NCBI GenBank assembly: GCA_027604705.1
Contig: JADHYV010000062.1
Span: 43,622-107,621, forward strand
Length of the DNA stretch: 64,000 nucleotides
Direction of reading: 5' to 3'
DNA from: Allomyces arbusculus
Lineage: Eukaryota > Blastocladiomycota > Blastocladiomycetes > Blastocladiales > Blastocladiaceae
The position numbers and the translations under genes were made by a program. Positions 1,489 to 42,531 of this stretch are shown one piece after another; position 1 is the first letter of the stretch; each line of letters opens with the position of its first letter. Below the pieces are notes generated by a model that saw nothing but the letters and a program-made list of their open reading frames with translations, was not told where the DNA came from and did no database searches.

Positions 1489-3294
1489 TCAACGTTCATA
1501 AGAGCGCTCCCACGACGAAAGCATTTCGACGATTCGCGGCCCAATCTCGGCGACGGGCACGCGGCGCTGCTCCATGGTATCGCGATGCCGCACCGTGACC
1601 ATGCGGTCAGTCAGCGACTGCTGATCGACCGTCACGCACACGGGCACGCCAACCTCATCAGCCTGTTGGTACCGCTTGCCGACAGTCCCGCGCGTCTCGA
1701 CCTGCGCCGTGATCAGCGGCCCAAACCCGGACCTCGACGGGGCCATGAGTGCCTTGTAAACGTCGTGCGCAATCTTGGTCAGGTCTGGGTTGTTGCCGAC
1801 GATCGGGAGCACATGTACCGTCGTGGGTGCGAGTGACGGGTGCAAACGCATCACCCCACGGCCCACAGTTTCCTTGGCCGGTGCCGACCCCGCCGACACG
1901 GCGCCCGACGGCGCCACCTGGTCAAACGCATCGTAGAGGAACGCGAGTACAGCGCGCGACAGGCCCGCCGACGACTCGATCACGTAGGGTGTGTACTTTT
2001 GCTGCGGCCCGCCGGGCGTTTCGGGCTCTTTGGGTAGGGTGCGGTCGTGCACGGTAAACGACGCGCCCGAGGCGCGCGCGTGGCACTGCAGGTCGTAGTC
2101 GGTTCGGTTGGCAACGCCTTCGAGCTCGCCCCAGCCCCATGGGAACAGGTACTCGACGTCGTAGCACCCTTCCGCATAGTGCGCAAGCTCCTTGGGCTCG
2201 TGCTCACGTAGCCGGAATTCGTCGGGGTGTGCGGCCAGCGACTGCCACCATCCGAAGCGCTTGTCGCGCCACTGCATGTGCGCGGCAGGCGCGTCCCACG
2301 GAGCCACAAAGTACTGCAGCTCGAGCTGCTCAAACTCGAGGCCGCGGAACAAGAAGTGCTCGGGCCGGATCTCGTTGCGGAATGACTTGCCGGCCTGCGC
2401 AATGCCAAATGGTGGTACGAGGTTGAGCGTCTTGACCATGTGCGGGAGCGCGGCATAGACGCCCTGCGCCGTCTCGGGGCGCAAATAAACGGTGGTTGCG
2501 TCGAGTGTCTGGTCAACGGTAGCGCGGATCGTGGCCGCATTGCTGTTCGTGTCAGCGCGCATGGTCACGTCAATGATTTGGTCGATTGGGTCGCGCGTGT
2601 CGGCAAACGACTTGAACAGCAGGTTGAAGGGTCGTGGCGCCGTCAGGAACGGATTGTTGCTGGTCGGATTCACGTAGCCGCGGTACTCGACACGCAATGC
2701 GGCAAGATCGGCCGTGGTCGCGTCTTCGGGCACAAGGTCCATGTACCCGACGGCATCGTAGAGCCCCTCGGGCGTCGTTTCCGAGATTTGTGGTTCCGTC
2801 AGGTGGCGAACGTGCACGAGCACCGTCTGTGCCTTGCGCTCGACACGCGCGCCTGGTGCAAGAACAGTACGAATCGTGTGTGCCCATGCTTCAGCCGTGG
2901 GCCGATCTGGTGCCGTCAACGTCACAATGCAACCGTCTTGCCCGTCTGGGGCAGGCTTGGTCTCGAGCGGAGCAGCCTTGTCGGCGCGGAACCGCGCGCC
3001 TGAGAGCCGGTCATCGACGAGCAAATCAGCAAAATTGGCGACATGGCCACTGGCCTTGAGCACGGCAGCAGGCGTCAGGATCGGCGACTCGAATCCCTTG
3101 ATTTCCGGGTGGGCATGCACGACGGAGCGCCACCAGTGTCGCTCAATGTTCTTCTTTAATTCGAGCGCGAGCGGTCCAAGGTCGTAGGCACCGCGCAGGC
3201 CGCCGTAAATGGCTGCTGATGGGAACAAGTATCCGCGGCGCTTGAAGACGTCAACAGCCGCACGTTGGGCGGCTGCTCGGCAGGTCGAGGCCAT
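1489..3294 (-). CDS. GRS1: Glycine--tRNA ligase, bacterial-type alpha2 class II
   Basis: Charges tRNA-Gly with glycine. Single exon, 601 aa. Residues 22-34 (YLFPSAAIYGGLR) and 81-106 (ASGHV to RFRADK) match the class IIa GlyRS start; YLRPETAQG lies at 270-278, motif 2 (SFRNEIRP) at 304-311, motif 3 near SSAGLSR, and a C-terminal anticodon-binding domain starts near VMRLHP. The segments FRGLEFEQLELQYFV, YLFPWGWGELEGVANRTDYDL and RHRDTMEQRRVP read like bacterial alpha2 GlyRS rather than the eukaryotic cytosolic enzyme, and the WHEP domain and long eukaryotic insertions are missing. A replacement insert occupies about 107-205. The first Met gives a short N-terminus; a mitochondrial or dual location is inferred, not shown. 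Divergent from the K+ channel gene. Confidence 0.92.
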   Translation of the reverse strand: MASTCRAAAQRAAVDVFKRRGYLFPSAAIYGGLRGAYDLGPLALELKKNIERHWWRSVVHAHPEIKGFESPILTPAAVLKASGHVANFADLLVDDRLSGARFRADKAAPLETKPAPDGQDGCIVTLTAPDRPTAEAWAHTIRTVLAPGARVERKAQTVLVHVRHLTEPQISETTPEGLYDAVGYMDLVPEDATTADLAALRVEYRGYVNPTSNNPFLTAPRPFNLLFKSFADTRDPIDQIIDVTMRADTNSNAATIRATVDQTLDATTVYLRPETAQGVYAALPHMVKTLNLVPPFGIAQAGKSFRNEIRPEHFLFRGLEFEQLELQYFVAPWDAPAAHMQWRDKRFGWWQSLAAHPDEFRLREHEPKELAHYAEGCYDVEYLFPWGWGELEGVANRTDYDLQCHARASGASFTVHDRTLPKEPETPGGPQQKYTPYVIESSAGLSRAVLAFLYDAFDQVAPSGAVSAGSAPAKETVGRGVMRLHPSLAPTTVHVLPIVGNNPDLTKIAHDVYKALMAPSRSGFGPLITAQVETRGTVGKRYQQADEVGVPVCVTVDQQSLTDRMVTVRHRDTMEQRRVPVAEIGPRIVEMLSSWERSYER

Positions 3295-3732
3295 GGTTGG
3301 GGTTGGGTCGGGGTCGTTCTCGTGTGCGTTCGGCTAATGGTTGGAGAAATGGCCGTCCCGCCTTGGTGCAATCGTTGGCAAACAGCGATCATGGTGCGGT
3401 GGATGCGGTAGAGAGCGGTAAGAAGGGATCACGACTTGTCACACTGGCCCCACCGTCGCGTCTCGCTCTGCTTGTGGCAACGGTGCAACGCTGTGCAATG
3501 GTTCGATTTTTCAATTTATCGATATTTGGCTGGTGCTGTTGCCAACTTCGCCAGCTCCCGTCGCGATCGTACTCCCCAACTCTCAGCTTCGACCACGGTT
3601 GGACCACGCTCACGACGCTTAGCTGCTGGCACCAGGCGCCCGCAAAGCGCAGGCTGATCCCGGTTATCCCGCTCGATCGCGCCTCGAGGCGGTCTTGTTG
3701 CTGCAACTCGTTCACCTCCACCTCTCCTGACC
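3295..3732. other. Shared upstream region of GlyRS and K+ channel genes
   Basis: 438 bp between two divergent start codons. No clear TATA box was seen. It presumably holds both promoters and 5' UTRs. Confidence 0.5.
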
Positions 3733-6109
3733 ATGGCCTCGAGCTCGCCCACCTTGCTCCACCGCACTGGCCAGACCGCTCCCGACGATGTTCAGCATGT
3801 CGGCTCCGAAATGAACTTGCTCGCCGACCAGGACTCGTCGCTCAGTAGCAGCCACTCGACTGTCGTCGCGCCCGCTCCCGCACCGCCAAGGATGCCGTCG
3901 CCCGGCTCCAGTATTGCGAGGGAGCCGGCCGCAAGCGATCTTGCAAATACGTCACGGCGTTCCGGTTTCCGTCCGTTTGTTGATACGTCGCAAAAGGGCA
4001 TCGCTCGCGACCAGGCCGTTGGCGACAAGCCGGGCGCCCCGCTCAACGCTGCACATGCCCTGCACTCACGCCAAGGATTCAAGCAGCCGCAGTCGGCCAT
4101 GGACGGCCGCCGCTCGACCGACGACTTGCCCATGCCGGCCTCGCCGCGGCACCGAGGTGGTTCGCGACTGCCCTACGAACCGCTGAACGTGGACGACGCA
4201 GAACGATACTCGCCCGACCGCGCGGGGCTGGCAGCCTTTAGCGTGATGCCAAACCTCGGCGAGTGGTCGCAGTGGCCATCTCGGTTTGCGTGGGACGGCG
4301 AGGTTTGTCGTCGTCTTCGACTGAAAAGTGGAATACAACGACATTTGACTGAATCTCGACTTGATTTCGTTGGGCAACCATAGATGCCGTGGACAACACG
4401 CCTGTACTTGCTCTTGGAGGATCCTTCGAGTTCACGCGAGGTAAGTGCATCATCGTGCCCACAACACCCGCGCACACTATCTGACGGTCCCTTGAAACTA
4501 GGCACTCGCCGTGTCCATCGTTGTCACGTTCATGATCGTCTTTGCTGCGACCGTCGTGACCATTGAAACGATCCCGGCACTCTACCTCGAAGGCAACGAT
4601 CTGTGGTCAATTCGGCAAGGCCTCGAAATCTTCATCATCGTCTTCTTCACCTTCGAGTACCTGCTGCGGCTCGCCGCACGCGCTGACTCGTGGGCATCAG
4701 CATGGCAATTCATTAAATCCCCGCTTGGCATCATCGATCTGCTCGCGATCGTCCCCTACTACGTCGAACTCGCTTCGCCGCATGCCGCACGGCCCGTGAC
4801 AATTGGCGAGTCCCCTGCCGACGCGGCCGCGGCGCACATGTCCTACGTGTTCCGCATCACGATCTTGAAAGTGTTTCGGCTGTTCCGCGTCTTCCGCGTT
4901 TTCAAGCACTCGTCGCTCATCCAGCTGTCGATTGAAGTGCTGATTATTGCGCTTAAGCGCTCGCTCGATGCTCTGTCGGCGCTTTTGTTCTTCACGCTCA
5001 TGATCATTCTTCTCTTCTCGACACTGCTCTACTATGCCGAGCGCGGCACCTGGGATCCGGCCGCACGTGGGTTTCTCGATATTCATGGTCGTCCGAGTCG
5101 ATTTGATTCGATTCCGGCCGCGTGCTGGTTTGTGATTGTCACGTTGACGACGACAGGTGCGTCTTGCTTTTCCTGGCGCCCGTGGGCAAGTCCTTCGTCC
5201 CTGCTAACGGCTTCGTCCCGGGCTCGAACATAGGTTACGGTGATATGGTACGCTGAAGTGCAGGGAACAGAGAAGTGCGACGGTTTTCCGCTAACGGTTT
5301 CCTGATAACGGGCAGGTCCCACAAACTTTTGTCGGCAAGCTGATAGCGTTCCCGGCCATGATGTGCGGAATTTTGGTACGCCAATCTGTCTTCTGGTAAT
5401 TTCCGCGCCGATGTGATCGTTCACGTTGCTTGCTGTGCTGCTTTCTAGATTATCGCGCTGCCGTCGATCATTGTTGGCCGCAACTTCACGATCGTGTGGG
5501 AATTTATGAAGGCACAGCGCGACCAGCTACAGCTCGAGGTGCGTGCTCACTTTGCTCATGTTGTTCTACGCCACGTTCCGCAACTCACTAGTGCCCACGA
5601 TACAGCACGACTACCAAGCTGTCCCGGGCCACGACGACACCGCGCTTCAAAACACCTCCGGCTCGCCCGCTGTCGTCCCCACCGCCCCCGCCGCGCACAC
5701 CGGCGACACGCCGACCGTCCTGGGCATGGGCTCGCCACACCTGGCCCCACGACCCGCGACGGCAACGCCGCAACTTGCAGCCGAAGCACTACCAAGCGCG
5801 TCCCTTTTCGACGACCCGTTCAGTCTCGGTGCGGGTGCGGCGTCCTCGCGGCACCTGCTCCCGCGCGACACCAAGCAGCTCGTGCGGTACGTGGCCGCGC
5901 TCGCGCACACGATGCAGGTCCAGCACGTGCAGTTTAACGAGGCGCTGTCCGTGTTGCGTGAACGGCTCGAGATTGAGGATTTGGTAGCGGCAAGTCGGGC
6001 TGGAGGTGCAGGTCCAGGTACGGGCGCCGCGGGTGGACTAGGACCGGGATCGGCAGTGGAGCCTGGGGTGGGAGGTGCGATTCCGACCGGGTCGCTGCCG
6101 CGCTCATGA
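3733..6109 (+). CDS. Voltage-gated potassium channel, Shaker/Kv type
   Basis: Six-transmembrane K+ channel of the plasma or vacuolar membrane, 649 aa in seven exons: 3733..4302, 4384..4440, 4502..5156, 5234..5247, 5316..5375, 5449..5538, 5606..6109. The N-terminal ~190 residues are low-complexity with no T1 domain seen. LYLLLEDPSSS precedes S1, as in Kv channels. S4 (about 326-345) has K/R at every third residue (KVFRLFRVFRVFK). The pore ends TLTTTGYGDM, the K+ filter; S6 follows (MMCGILIIALPSIIVGRNF). The filter GYGDM spans a 14-nt exon (5234..5247). The C-terminal tail is Pro/Ala/Gly-rich with a short helical stretch near VAALAHTMQVQH. All junctions keep frame (1950 nt). Family assignment is strong; subunit partners are unknown. 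Confidence 0.93.
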
Positions 6110-7331: not shown

Positions 7332-9501
7332 ATGGCTGCCGAGTTTTCACGGCTGGACCAGCAGCGGTTCAACCGCTTCAACCTCAAGACGATTCTTGTA
7401 TCGGGCATTGGCTTCTTTACCGATGCGTTCGACGTGAGTATTTGCTGACCACCGACCACATCCGGCCGCCGTGATTTCGCAATGATGCTGTGAGCTGACG
7501 ACCAATTCCCGCGCCTCTGCAGATTTTCGTCATCAACCTCGCGATTCCGATGATTGCCTTCGTGTGGTACTTCAAGGAGAGCAGCGATATTGGCAAGGCC
7601 AACCACATGCCCAAGGTCGAGTCGGGTCTGCTCAAGGCATCAACACAAGTCGGCACATTTGTCGGCCAGCTGCTTTTCGGGTTCCTGTCCGACAAACTCG
7701 GTCGCAAGTCGATGTACGGCCTGGTGCTCGCGTACGTGTCGCTGCTTTCCTTGCTTCACGGGCGACGTCGGAACGGCGCGCTCCCACCTCGCCAGCGCTT
7801 CTGAAAACCAAACTGACCATGTGGAAAAAATTCCCTACGCGAACGCGAACAGCATCATGATTTTTTCGACCATCAACACGGCGCTCGTCGCCCCAACCAA
7901 GGCGTTCTCGATTGGCGCGATTCTGATTCTGTGGCGGTTGGTGTTGGGCGTCGGGATCGGTGGAGATTACCCCATCTCAGCCGTGATCACGTCCGAGTTC
8001 GCGTCCAAACACAACCGCGGTCTCATGGTCGCGGCTGTGTTCGCAATGCAGGGGCTCGGCATCATGGTCGCGTCGCTGTGCGCGATTATCGTTATGGCCG
8101 CGTTCAAGCCCACGCTCGTGCCGGACAACGAGGGCTCGGTCTACGTCTCGGCGCTCGACTCGGTGTGGCGCCTGCTATTTTTCCTCGGCATCGTTCCGGC
8201 CTGCATGGCGGTCTACTGGCGTCTCCAAGTGCGTACAGGGCGGCGGCGTTGAAGGCTGGCGATGAGCGGAACTGACTCAGTATGTTGCTTTGCTTCTAGA
8301 TCCCCGAAACCCCCCGTTTCACGGCTGTCGCTCGCGGCGATGTCGAGAAGGCCATGGCCGACCTGCACAAGGTCGTGAACGAGGGCAGCGACGATATCCA
8401 ACTCGCCCCAGCCTCGTCGTCGGCCGAAGCACCCGTGAGCCAGATTCGCGCGCCGCTCGACGCGTCGATCTCGCTCGAGGACAAGTACTCGTTCCTGACG
8501 TTTGGCCAGCTGTTTGGCAACTGGAAGAACGGCAAGATTCTGTTTGCAACGGCCGCGTGTTGGTTCCTGCTCGACGTCGGCTTCTACGGCGTCCAGCTGA
8601 ACCAGTCGGAGATTGTCAAGTACCTCGGCTACGGTGGCGGTCATACGGTACGATTTTGTGCTTCTCAACACGATTCACGGGACGGTTTATGTGAGGGTGT
8701 TCGAGATCACAGCCGTTTCTGACCTCAACTGACCACTCGTTCCCCAACCCAGGCCTACGAGTTCTTCTGGAACAACTGCCTCGGCAACCTGATTCTCTCG
8801 CTTTGCGGCACCGTTCCCGGATACTGGATTACTGTGTTCACGATCGAGAAGCTCGGCCGCACGCGCATCCAGCTCTTGGGCTTCGCCGCCCTCACGGTTA
8901 TCTTCATCGTGCTCACGATTTTCTGGGAGTCGATGAAGGGCACGACTGCCTTCTTCGCTCTCTTTTTGCTGGGAAATCTCTTTTTCAACTTGTCGGTGTT
9001 TTCCTTTCTTTATCTGCGCCGTTTCTCCCTACTCGCTTGACTTGTGGTACTGACCGGTTTCCGACACTTCCCAACCCATCTAGCGGCCCGAACACGACCA
9101 CGTTCATTCTCCCCGCCGAGCTGTTCCCGACCAAGTTCCGGTCGACGTGCCACGGTATTTCGGCCGCTGCGGGCAAGATGGGCGCGATCATTGCCGCGTT
9201 TGGGTTTGATCAGGTTCGTATCCCTCCACGCTGTGCTGCTCCGACCAGCTCTAAACCACGCGACATGAAAACTGATCTTCAAATCTCTCTTCTCCACCAG
9301 ATTCGTGGCGATCACGGCGAGGGCATGCAATTGATCCTCGGCATCTTCTCCGGGTGCATGGCGTTGGGTCTGATCTGCACTTTCTTGATTCCCGAGACCA
9401 AGGGCAAGACGCTCGAGGAGCTGTCAGCATCCTTCTACTCGCAGGAAGTCGTGTCCAAATTCCCGCCGCCGCCGGACCACGAGCCCAAGGGCAAGATCTG
9501 A
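7332..9501 (+). CDS. PHO84: Inorganic phosphate:H+ symporter, Pho84-like MFS
   Basis: Plasma-membrane phosphate importer, 534 aa, seven exons: 7332..7433, 7523..7731, 7853..8228, 8300..8647, 8753..8991, 9084..9213, 9301..9501. After splicing the frame is continuous (1605 nt). Diagnostic segments: GFFTDAFD in TM1, GFLSDKLGRKSMYG in the TM2-3 loop, GVGIGGDYPISAVITSE (PHS family signature), the central hydrophilic loop with PETPRFT, NFGPNTTTFILPAELFPT in TM8-9 and PETKGKTLEE at the C-terminus. Yeast Pho84 is somewhat longer (587 aa). A TATAAA lies about 190 bp upstream. Its last exon and 3' flank are duplicated in inverted orientation about 0.4 kb downstream. Confidence 0.95.
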
Positions 9502-9923
9502 TCTTGCGGTTGCCAGTTGCATTAGCGCTCGCTGAGGAGTCGCTCGCAGCGCGCTTAGAGTGCGTCACGCGCTCGACTTTACCCATTTTTGATCTTTGGT
9601 TTTTTCGCATTGTTACTTTGTCGTTTTGTTGTGGTCTTTGTTCATGTTGTAGGCGCGGGGAGTCCCAGTGCGGCGGCTTCCGGCCTCATCAATTTGGTGT
9701 GCTTGAATTTAGACATTGGTTCGTGACCAAAAACGTTTGCAGCGTTTTTCACCCATCTGCTCAGGTCAGCCTTGCTTACATGCCTCTGTCTGCACTTTCG
9801 ATCATGAGGACATGGCCCATACTCGAGTATAGAGCGTTTCGCGCCCCTCACTTCCATGAGAGCGTAGCATGGGCGTGAGTTTAGAGAGGCAAACAAGGAC
9901 GCATGAGCCGAGAAAATGGTTGG

Positions 9924-10137
9924 GCGCTGCGAGCGACTGCTCAGCGAGCGCTAATGCAACCGGCAGCCGCAAGATCAGATCTTGCCCTTGGGCTCGTGGT
10001 CCGGCGGCGGCGGGAATTTGGACACGACTTCCTGCGAGTAGAAGGACGCTGACAGCTCCTCGAGCGTCTTGCCATTGATCTGGGGAAATAAGAAAGTGCA
10101 AACCAGACCCAACGCCATTCACCCGGAGAAGATGCCT
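9924..10137 (-). pseudogene. Inverted partial copy of the phosphate transporter 3' end
   Basis: On the minus strand this ~214-bp block repeats 9340..9554 (last coding exon plus ~50 bp of 3' flank) with high identity by eye. It ends in the same KGKIC-terminus and stop codon, then the same 3' UTR bases. The Cys codon of the source (SGCMA) is TGA here, and the ETKGK region has changed, so it cannot encode the transporter end. Its sequence resemblance extends past the stop codon, which argues for DNA duplication rather than capture of a processed coding piece. Confidence 0.85.
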
Positions 10138-41395: not shown

Positions 41396-42531
41396 GGTGG
41401 TGCTGATGGTTGCTTTTGGTAGGTTGCGGGAGCGAATGCGTGTGCTTCGACTGGAGAGTCGGGATGAGCTAGCGGGGGGATGTGCGCTCTTATAGGGGCA
41501 GCGTTGTGGAACCCCCATTTCGACGTGGTCTGACCAGCATTCCAGCACGCGTTCCCGCGACCCCATTCGCTGTTCACCATCCGCTCTTCGCAGCGCTCAG
41601 GGTTCTCGAGGCATTGTATATTTGAATTTGAATTCTCATTGGAGCAGCATGCGGCAGGTAATTTTGTGGGGCGGGCGCCTCAATGACCGGTCGGCCGCGA
41701 ACTGATCCTTCTCCTCTTCCCGAGCGCTCGTCCGTAAACCACGGTAAGCAGGCGATGCGGGACAGAGATCCCTCTCTTCATGCCCGTGCGGAGTGATCAC
41801 GGCGAACAGAACAGAACGCCTGCAGCCGGCCGTCAGAAGCGCGCGCCGGGGTCGATGGCGGACGGCGTGAAGGGTGGGTGTGACCTCGAGAGACGCGTCG
41901 TGCAGCGCACGTGTGGACTGAGAGACACCGGTTGCACCCAGCAACGTCTCGGCGTGGCCCCACATGACGTGATCAACGCAGATAAAGTGCACCACCTCCA
42001 CCACCATCCTTTCGAAATCATCCTCTCGTCTGCTTCCACTCTGAAGCGAGTTTGTTATTGCTGTCTTTGGCCCTGACGACATGTCGTTGCCCGATCTGCC
42101 AAGGAAGACAAGATTTATCCGCGCTACCGAATGCACCATGTGGATAACGATAAATAATGGTTGAATTTCTTCGGCTGAGGTGTGATCGCCTACGACGTGA
42201 TGTGTTGCTATTTTTTCTTCCTGTCTCGATGCGGAACCCATGTGATGGTACTTTGTAATTTGCGATTGAGATGCGGCCCGAGACCGTCACATGCCTGGTG
42301 ATCAACATGGCTCGGTGTCCGCCCTGAGAACAACTTTTCGCTGAAGGGTTCATTGTTGCTGGCTTTATTCTTCTGTGTCTGTCGCTCTGCAAGTCACACG
42401 CGCTGGGTGATTTCCGAGAGCGAGGCGTGGTAGTTCTCGACGAAAAATGGCACTAATAGCAAAGGAGACGGGGGAATATATGTCACACTAATGGTTACAT
42501 CGACAAACGCACGCAACGGCAGGCACGGGCA
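41396..42531. other. Intergenic region
   Basis: 1.1 kb between the S-P-T-K gene start and the GUK1 3' end. Short ORFs only; no recognised feature beyond the TATA-like element near 41490. Confidence 0.55.
41489..41494 (-). promoter_or_regulatory. TATA-like element of S-P-T-K gene
   Basis: TATAAG on the minus strand, about 95 bp upstream of the ATG at 41395. Confidence 0.4.

Follow-up and report, generated by a model that had tools for sequence, protein, structure and literature searches.

A 14-nt microexon carrying the selectivity-filter codons of a predicted Kv-type potassium channel gene in Allomyces arbusculus

Within a 64,000-nt stretch of the Allomyces arbusculus genome (contig JADHYV010000062.1, positions 43,622 to 107,621, forward strand; hereafter the window), a predicted potassium channel gene raises the question of how the codons for its ion-selecting residues are joined into the message, and whether that joining makes the channel subject to a switch. 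The original prediction placed the codons for GYGDM on a 14-nt exon that borrows one base from the preceding exon and lies between introns of 77 and 68 nt. When the window sequence was read base by base, each of these elements matched (Table 1), the GYGDM codons being composed of the 14-nt microexon together with one G from exon 3. A seven-exon model of the gene (3733–6109), joined at the exon boundaries listed in Table 1, translated into a 649-aa protein with zero internal stops that contains FVIVTLTTTGYGDMVPQTFVGKLIAFPAMMCGILIIALPSIIV, and the restoration of TLTTTGYGDMVPQ that had been predicted upon inclusion of the microexon was seen in the same translation. The least certain join of the model was the intron at 5539–5605, for which there were three open alternatives. 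As an internal coding exon of 14 nt with canonical splice sites (AG/exon/GT, the slash marking the splice boundary), the exon falls, on sequence alone, within the class of microexons, defined as internal coding exons of 3–30 nt with such sites. Taken together, these analyses confirm the predicted microexon gene structure as real. It was also observed that the 5′ end of the microexon (5234) reads GT, so that, once intron A is spliced out, a donor-like ACAG/GTTACG is formed anew as a consequence of the split Gly codon, a layout that we take to resemble recursive splice sites.

Table 1. Positions of the exons and introns of the Kv gene in the window (slash, splice boundary).
Feature	Position	Strand	Description
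Kv exon 1	3733..4302	+	N-terminal part; open frame from ATG; Pfam detects no T1 domain
Kv exon 2	4384..4440	+	Directly before S1, LYLLLEDPSSSRE; aligned with Kv2.1
Kv exon 3	4502..5156	+	S1–S5 and P-helix; ends in TLTTT, followed by the first G of the split Gly codon
Intron A	5157..5233	+	77 nt; donor CAG/GTGCGT, branch match CTAAC, acceptor ATAG
Microexon	5234..5247	+	14 nt, GTTACGGTGATATG; (G)GYGDM selectivity filter
Intron B	5248..5315	+	68 nt; donor ATG/GTACGC, branch match CTAAC, acceptor GCAG
Kv exon 5	5316..5375	+	60 nt, VPQTFVGKLIAFPAMMCGIL, running into S6; comparison with Kv2.1 and C27
Intron C	5376..5448	+	73 nt; donor GTACGC, acceptor CTAG; YTRAY branch match not found
Kv exon 6	5449..5538	+	Remainder of S6, IIALPSIIVGRNFTIVWEF...; comparison with Kv2.1 and C27
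Kv last exon	5606..6109	+	Cytoplasmic tail

The identity of the product was assessed by comparison with Pfam and with the sequences of solved structures. Pfam returned Ion_trans (residues 213–465, E 1.2e-30) and Ion_trans_2 (E 1.8e-11) and nothing else. The T1 tetramerisation domain, which is characteristic of animal Kv1–4 channels, was not found by Pfam in the 649-aa protein, and the gene was therefore filed as Kv-type, outside animal Kv1–4. Sequences of solved structures gave 144 matches, the best of which, among the 60 listed, were Kv2.1 (KCNB1), Kv4.2 and Kv4.3 (KCND2, KCND3), Kv1.2 (KCNA2) and Shaker. In the Kv2.1 match (E 3.9e-32) the filter aligned gap-free, with TLTTTGYGDM pairing with TMTTVGYGDI, a pairing that is possible only with the microexon included. 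Basic residues were present at every third position of S4 (KVFRLFRVFRVFK), aligned with the S4 region of Kv2.1, and a paralogue within the genome, C27, showed 33% identity (72/219) to the window channel in a match that was continuous across the filter. The predicted product is a full Kv-type six-helix pore with intact S4 charges and S6. Shaker-like K+ channels are reported from fungi, including Blastocladiomycota (PMC7678990). The fungal Shaker-like channel described there, HcSKC, is like the window gene in being of six-helix Kv-type with a G[YF]G[DE] filter, but that filter is GYGE in HcSKC and GYGD in the window gene; the likeness is one of protein features, the main text of PMC7678990 containing neither the word intron nor the word exon.

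The possible ways of splicing the filter region were then enumerated. Between the outer donor (5157) and the outer acceptor (5315), and with a minimum intron length of 30 nt, there were 22 candidate internal exons of the form AG/exon/GT; three of these kept the frame to the end, and only one of the three, the 14-nt exon, yielded GYGD. Models with a single intron, which would place the filter on a larger exon, were enumerated with donors at 5130–5315, acceptors up to 5344 and a length of at least 40 nt. Four of them stayed open, none encoded GYG, and they were rejected. Within the limits of these enumerations, the filter is restorable solely through the microexon.

Introns A and B are both GT-AG, with CTAAC located 20–30 nt ahead of the intron end. 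In Blastocladiella emersonii, according to PMC2773782, introns are mostly 60–79 nt long (range 55–333 nt), 102 of 105 are GT-AG and all have a CTAAC-like sequence; the lengths, termini and CTAAC of introns A and B fit this published pattern. Splice-site strength was compared with a rough splice model made from 27 window introns outside the Kv gene (median 81 nt, range 62–121 nt) and with a wider set of 60 introns, both of which were score-picked from unannotated sequence with a YTRAY branch match required, and which together superseded a stricter first intron finder (24 raw candidates, giving 9 introns). Relative to the 27 introns, a set that is biased to strong sites by construction and may contain false introns, the donor of intron A scored at least as high as all 27 and its acceptor lay at the 15th percentile, and the donor and acceptor of intron B both scored below all 27. 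In the 60-intron set, to which the same bias and the same possibility of false introns apply, the donor of intron B was at the 43rd percentile, with the branch and acceptor of both introns at the 3rd to 8th percentile. The published preference for CTAAC was not reproduced in the 27-intron set, where the branch match was CTGAC in 18 introns and CTAAC in one. When the comparison was made with 11 introns that were placed by protein homology or lie within the Kv gene (5539–5605 being less certain), the donor of intron B ranked sixth and its acceptor was tied for eighth to ninth; its donor sequence, GTACGC, is present in five of the 11, intron B included. Folding gave no sign of strong RNA structure around the microexon: 192 of 200 shuffles folded equally well or better (z +1.57).

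Intron positions were also read in paralogous channels. A search of the genome (25.9 Mb in 197 contigs; G+C of the window, 60%) gave at least nine matches to Ion_trans_2 and at least 40 to Ion_trans; the genome-wide Ion_trans_2 search missed the window gene, which was not among the nine. The filter region was read in six GYG genes of six-helix type, namely the window gene, C27 (L021), C33 (L025), C26 (L022), C35 (L023) and C16 (L031). In C27 an intron lies inside the second Gly codon (GG/A), followed by DITPKT, and in C33 an intron lies within the third codon ahead of the first Gly (AC/A ACG ACG GGG TAC). In C26 and C35, which are close copies of each other, an intron is found exactly at the position of intron A (ACG G/GC TAC GGT GAC). 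The codons of C16 (TTTGYGH; G000:C16:24000-26800) are uninterrupted, and His replaces the usual Asp after GYG. Overall, in five of the six genes an intron interrupts the filter codons or lies no more than three codons from them, at three distinct positions besides that of intron B, which was seen only in the window gene among the paralogues read. In animals, Kv4 genes have an intron near the filter.

C26 and C35 are K+ channel genes of the CNBD type, the cyclic-nucleotide-binding domain scoring above the cut-off in the C26 piece and slightly below it in the C35 piece, and their intron interrupts the codon at a phase identical to that of intron A (TTT G/GY GD). Unlike the window gene, which has both introns, they are without a second filter intron or a microexon, and the filter opens a long exon. 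Four other loci (L004, L037, L038 and L039) carry GYGD or GFGD uninterrupted at the filter, and L005 reads TTISYD. A pattern search, to which intron-split filters are invisible, gave no other convincing GYG-type filter in 3.5 kb of the window, L021–L040 and L004–L006. For relatives in viral contigs, eight stretches fitted a pattern and none was confirmed.

Several further observations were made while reading these loci. After an upstream intron, L033 (G000:C33:49000-51500) and L034 (G000:C5:274000-277000) have PGYADL and PGYGIF, respectively, in place of GYGD; by eye, both resemble CNBD channels. A long G run is present at ~1530–1550 of L022 (G000:C26), apparently in intronic sequence of the CNBD channel gene. 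The cation-channel gene stretches L024 (G000:C42) and L026 (G000:C14) have near-identical translations over a long range, reflecting either recent duplication or a sequence duplicated in the assembly.

We consider it probable that the filter codons of the Kv gene are carried on a constitutively included 14-nt microexon between two ordinary short introns. The microexon would be the remainder left between the neighbouring introns A and B, 14 coding bases apart, and the spliceosome would work by intron definition, pairing the two splice sites of each short intron. Since pairing would occur across the short introns, the microexon itself would need no recognition and would be kept by default. Such pairing of splice sites across short introns was reportedly described for Schizosaccharomyces pombe by Romfo et al. 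in 2000, a study that is cited among fungal microexon work in PMC11121469. A review (PMC8624252) states that the efficiency of intron-definition splicing depends on the length of the intron and not on that of the exon. Intron B would have been gained after intron A, given that A is common to the CNBD genes and that B was seen only in the window gene. Two introns lying next to each other are the most likely origin of the microexon; an independent (parallel) gain of A in the Kv and CNBD genes is possible. For this organism we infer constitutive inclusion, intron definition and the later addition of B, whereas in S. pombe intron definition was reportedly tested by experiment.

The consequences of missplicing were computed from predicted transcripts. 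Skipping of the microexon shifts the frame. The shifted frame stays open for 160 residues beyond the P-helix and terminates within the last exon, at codon 588 of 645, with the stop 332 nt downstream of the final junction; this reading frame bears out the earlier expectation that skipping removes the filter and shifts the frame. The skipped product would be a predicted subunit with S1–S5 and without the filter or S6, and its message could escape junction-dependent decay, if the fungus uses such decay. A direct splice from the donor of intron A to the acceptor of intron B (159 nt, within the B. emersonii range given in PMC2773782) is possible, because the sites of B scored below all 27 model introns and the donor of A was the strongest.

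These predictions bear on the idea of a regulated switch, in which stage or stress would control inclusion versus skipping of the microexon and the frame-shifted subunit could be inert or could poison mixed tetramers. Its strongest point, itself a prediction, is that junction-dependent decay would spare a message with its stop in the last exon. The contrast between the strong outer donor and an inner donor below the 27 model introns points the same way, as does the publication of a functional, glucose-responsive fungal microexon, Xlr2 (PMC11121469). However, the donor of intron B is mid-ranked in the 11-intron set, strong RNA structure is lacking around the microexon, and the length of 14 nt is not divisible by three, whereas microexon lengths usually are (PMC11121469). 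Moreover, the fact that the phase of intron A is common to two K+ channel genes without a microexon suggests an ordinary intron history and not a purpose-built switch. We therefore regard regulation of this kind as unlikely. It is also quite unlikely that a built-in switch exists in which the strong outer donor is joined, at some life stage or under stress, to the far acceptor to give a stable mRNA, with the filterless subunit co-assembling with intact subunits and silencing them. If a switch did operate, the fungus would tune its K+ conductance through one microexon. Matches to SRRM_C, an animal-type microexon enhancer domain, and to FF domains were absent from the genome, and control genomes were likewise without match (0 of 14 for SRRM_C), so the absence carries no weight. 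Of the proposal that channel activity is directly dependent on one splice decision, the gene structure and the effect of skipping hold, but the dependence goes further than the evidence: two introns need removal, and the claim overreaches because both are of ordinary short form and strong RNA structure was not found.

Intron retention would act differently in the predicted transcripts. Retention of intron A places a premature stop at the TAG of A's own acceptor, 164 nt before the last junction, and retention of intron B places one at the intron's third codon, 209 nt before that junction. Both are compatible with a stress-linked loss in which splicing failure under cadmium or heat would leave A or B in the message and truncate the channel before S6. 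In B. emersonii under cadmium or heat, retention was recorded in 181 of 6,350 stress ESTs versus 45 of 23,350 normal ESTs (PMC2773782). However, the same source describes the inhibition as probably random over introns, which implies nothing specific to the microexon, and the location of both stops ahead of the last junction makes decay likely. As an account of this exon, stress-linked retention is very unlikely, and it can be compatible with constitutive inclusion. An assembly error, or a decaying gene with an unused filter exon, is hardly credible in the face of a 649-aa frame that is stop-free across all seven exons, the preserved S4 charges and S6, and canonical splice dinucleotides.

Other features were noted in the window and the wider genome. 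A 614-aa open frame at window 1492–3333 (−), which we take to be a glycyl-tRNA synthetase, contains an anticodon-binding domain (E 8.6e-15), together with a match to the class II tRNA synthetase core below the cut-off. An inverted repeat at window 9340–9552 and 9924–10136 has 213-nt arms that are 94% complementary and lie 371 nt apart; here the apparent 3′ end of a neighbouring transporter gene, with a Sugar_tr match upstream, is repeated in reverse orientation. The Rfam C/D-box snoRNA snoU36a was matched at window 42097–42182 (+) with 50.2 bits. Elsewhere in the genome, microbial rhodopsin matches were found at C7:515350-516000 and C15:369892-370536, in both cases with guanylyl cyclase matches within ~250 bases after the rhodopsin on the same strand. 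At C7 a single 633-aa open frame contains both rhodopsin and cyclase sequence, and the best matches of the cyclase piece were solved nucleotide cyclases, including, among those listed, two entries for a bacterio-rhodopsin/guanylyl cyclase 1 fusion protein. Rhodopsin/guanylyl cyclase fusions mark the Blastocladiomycota; the two loci point to that group, in agreement with the zoospores mentioned in the original prediction.

Fungal microexons are known and few have been tested, and the Kv microexon is a further example at a notable site. According to the 2024 Trichoderma Xlr2 paper (PMC11121469), no functional microexons had earlier been described in filamentous fungi, and experimental tests of fungal microexons had previously been limited to S. 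pombe. The Xlr2 microexon of Trichoderma virens differs from the present one in that its glucose-dependent inclusion is established from RNA evidence (PMC11121469), whereas the Kv microexon is predicted from the genomic sequence. A literature search that covered few subscription papers found no paper joining potassium channel, selectivity filter and microexon, and, among the papers listed, nothing relevant to where introns lie or how splicing proceeds in K+ channel pores, or to microexons in chytrids or Blastocladiomycota.

For gene prediction, the locus serves as a warning, as an exon of 14 nt can readily be overlooked, in which case the channel would appear broken or be wrongly joined. If RNA confirms the structure, this would be an unusually clear case, in an early-diverging fungus, of a microexon bearing almost all of a protein's functional core. 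Together, the sharing of intron A by Kv and CNBD genes and the near-filter introns of two more paralogues form a small natural series on introns in invariant codons.
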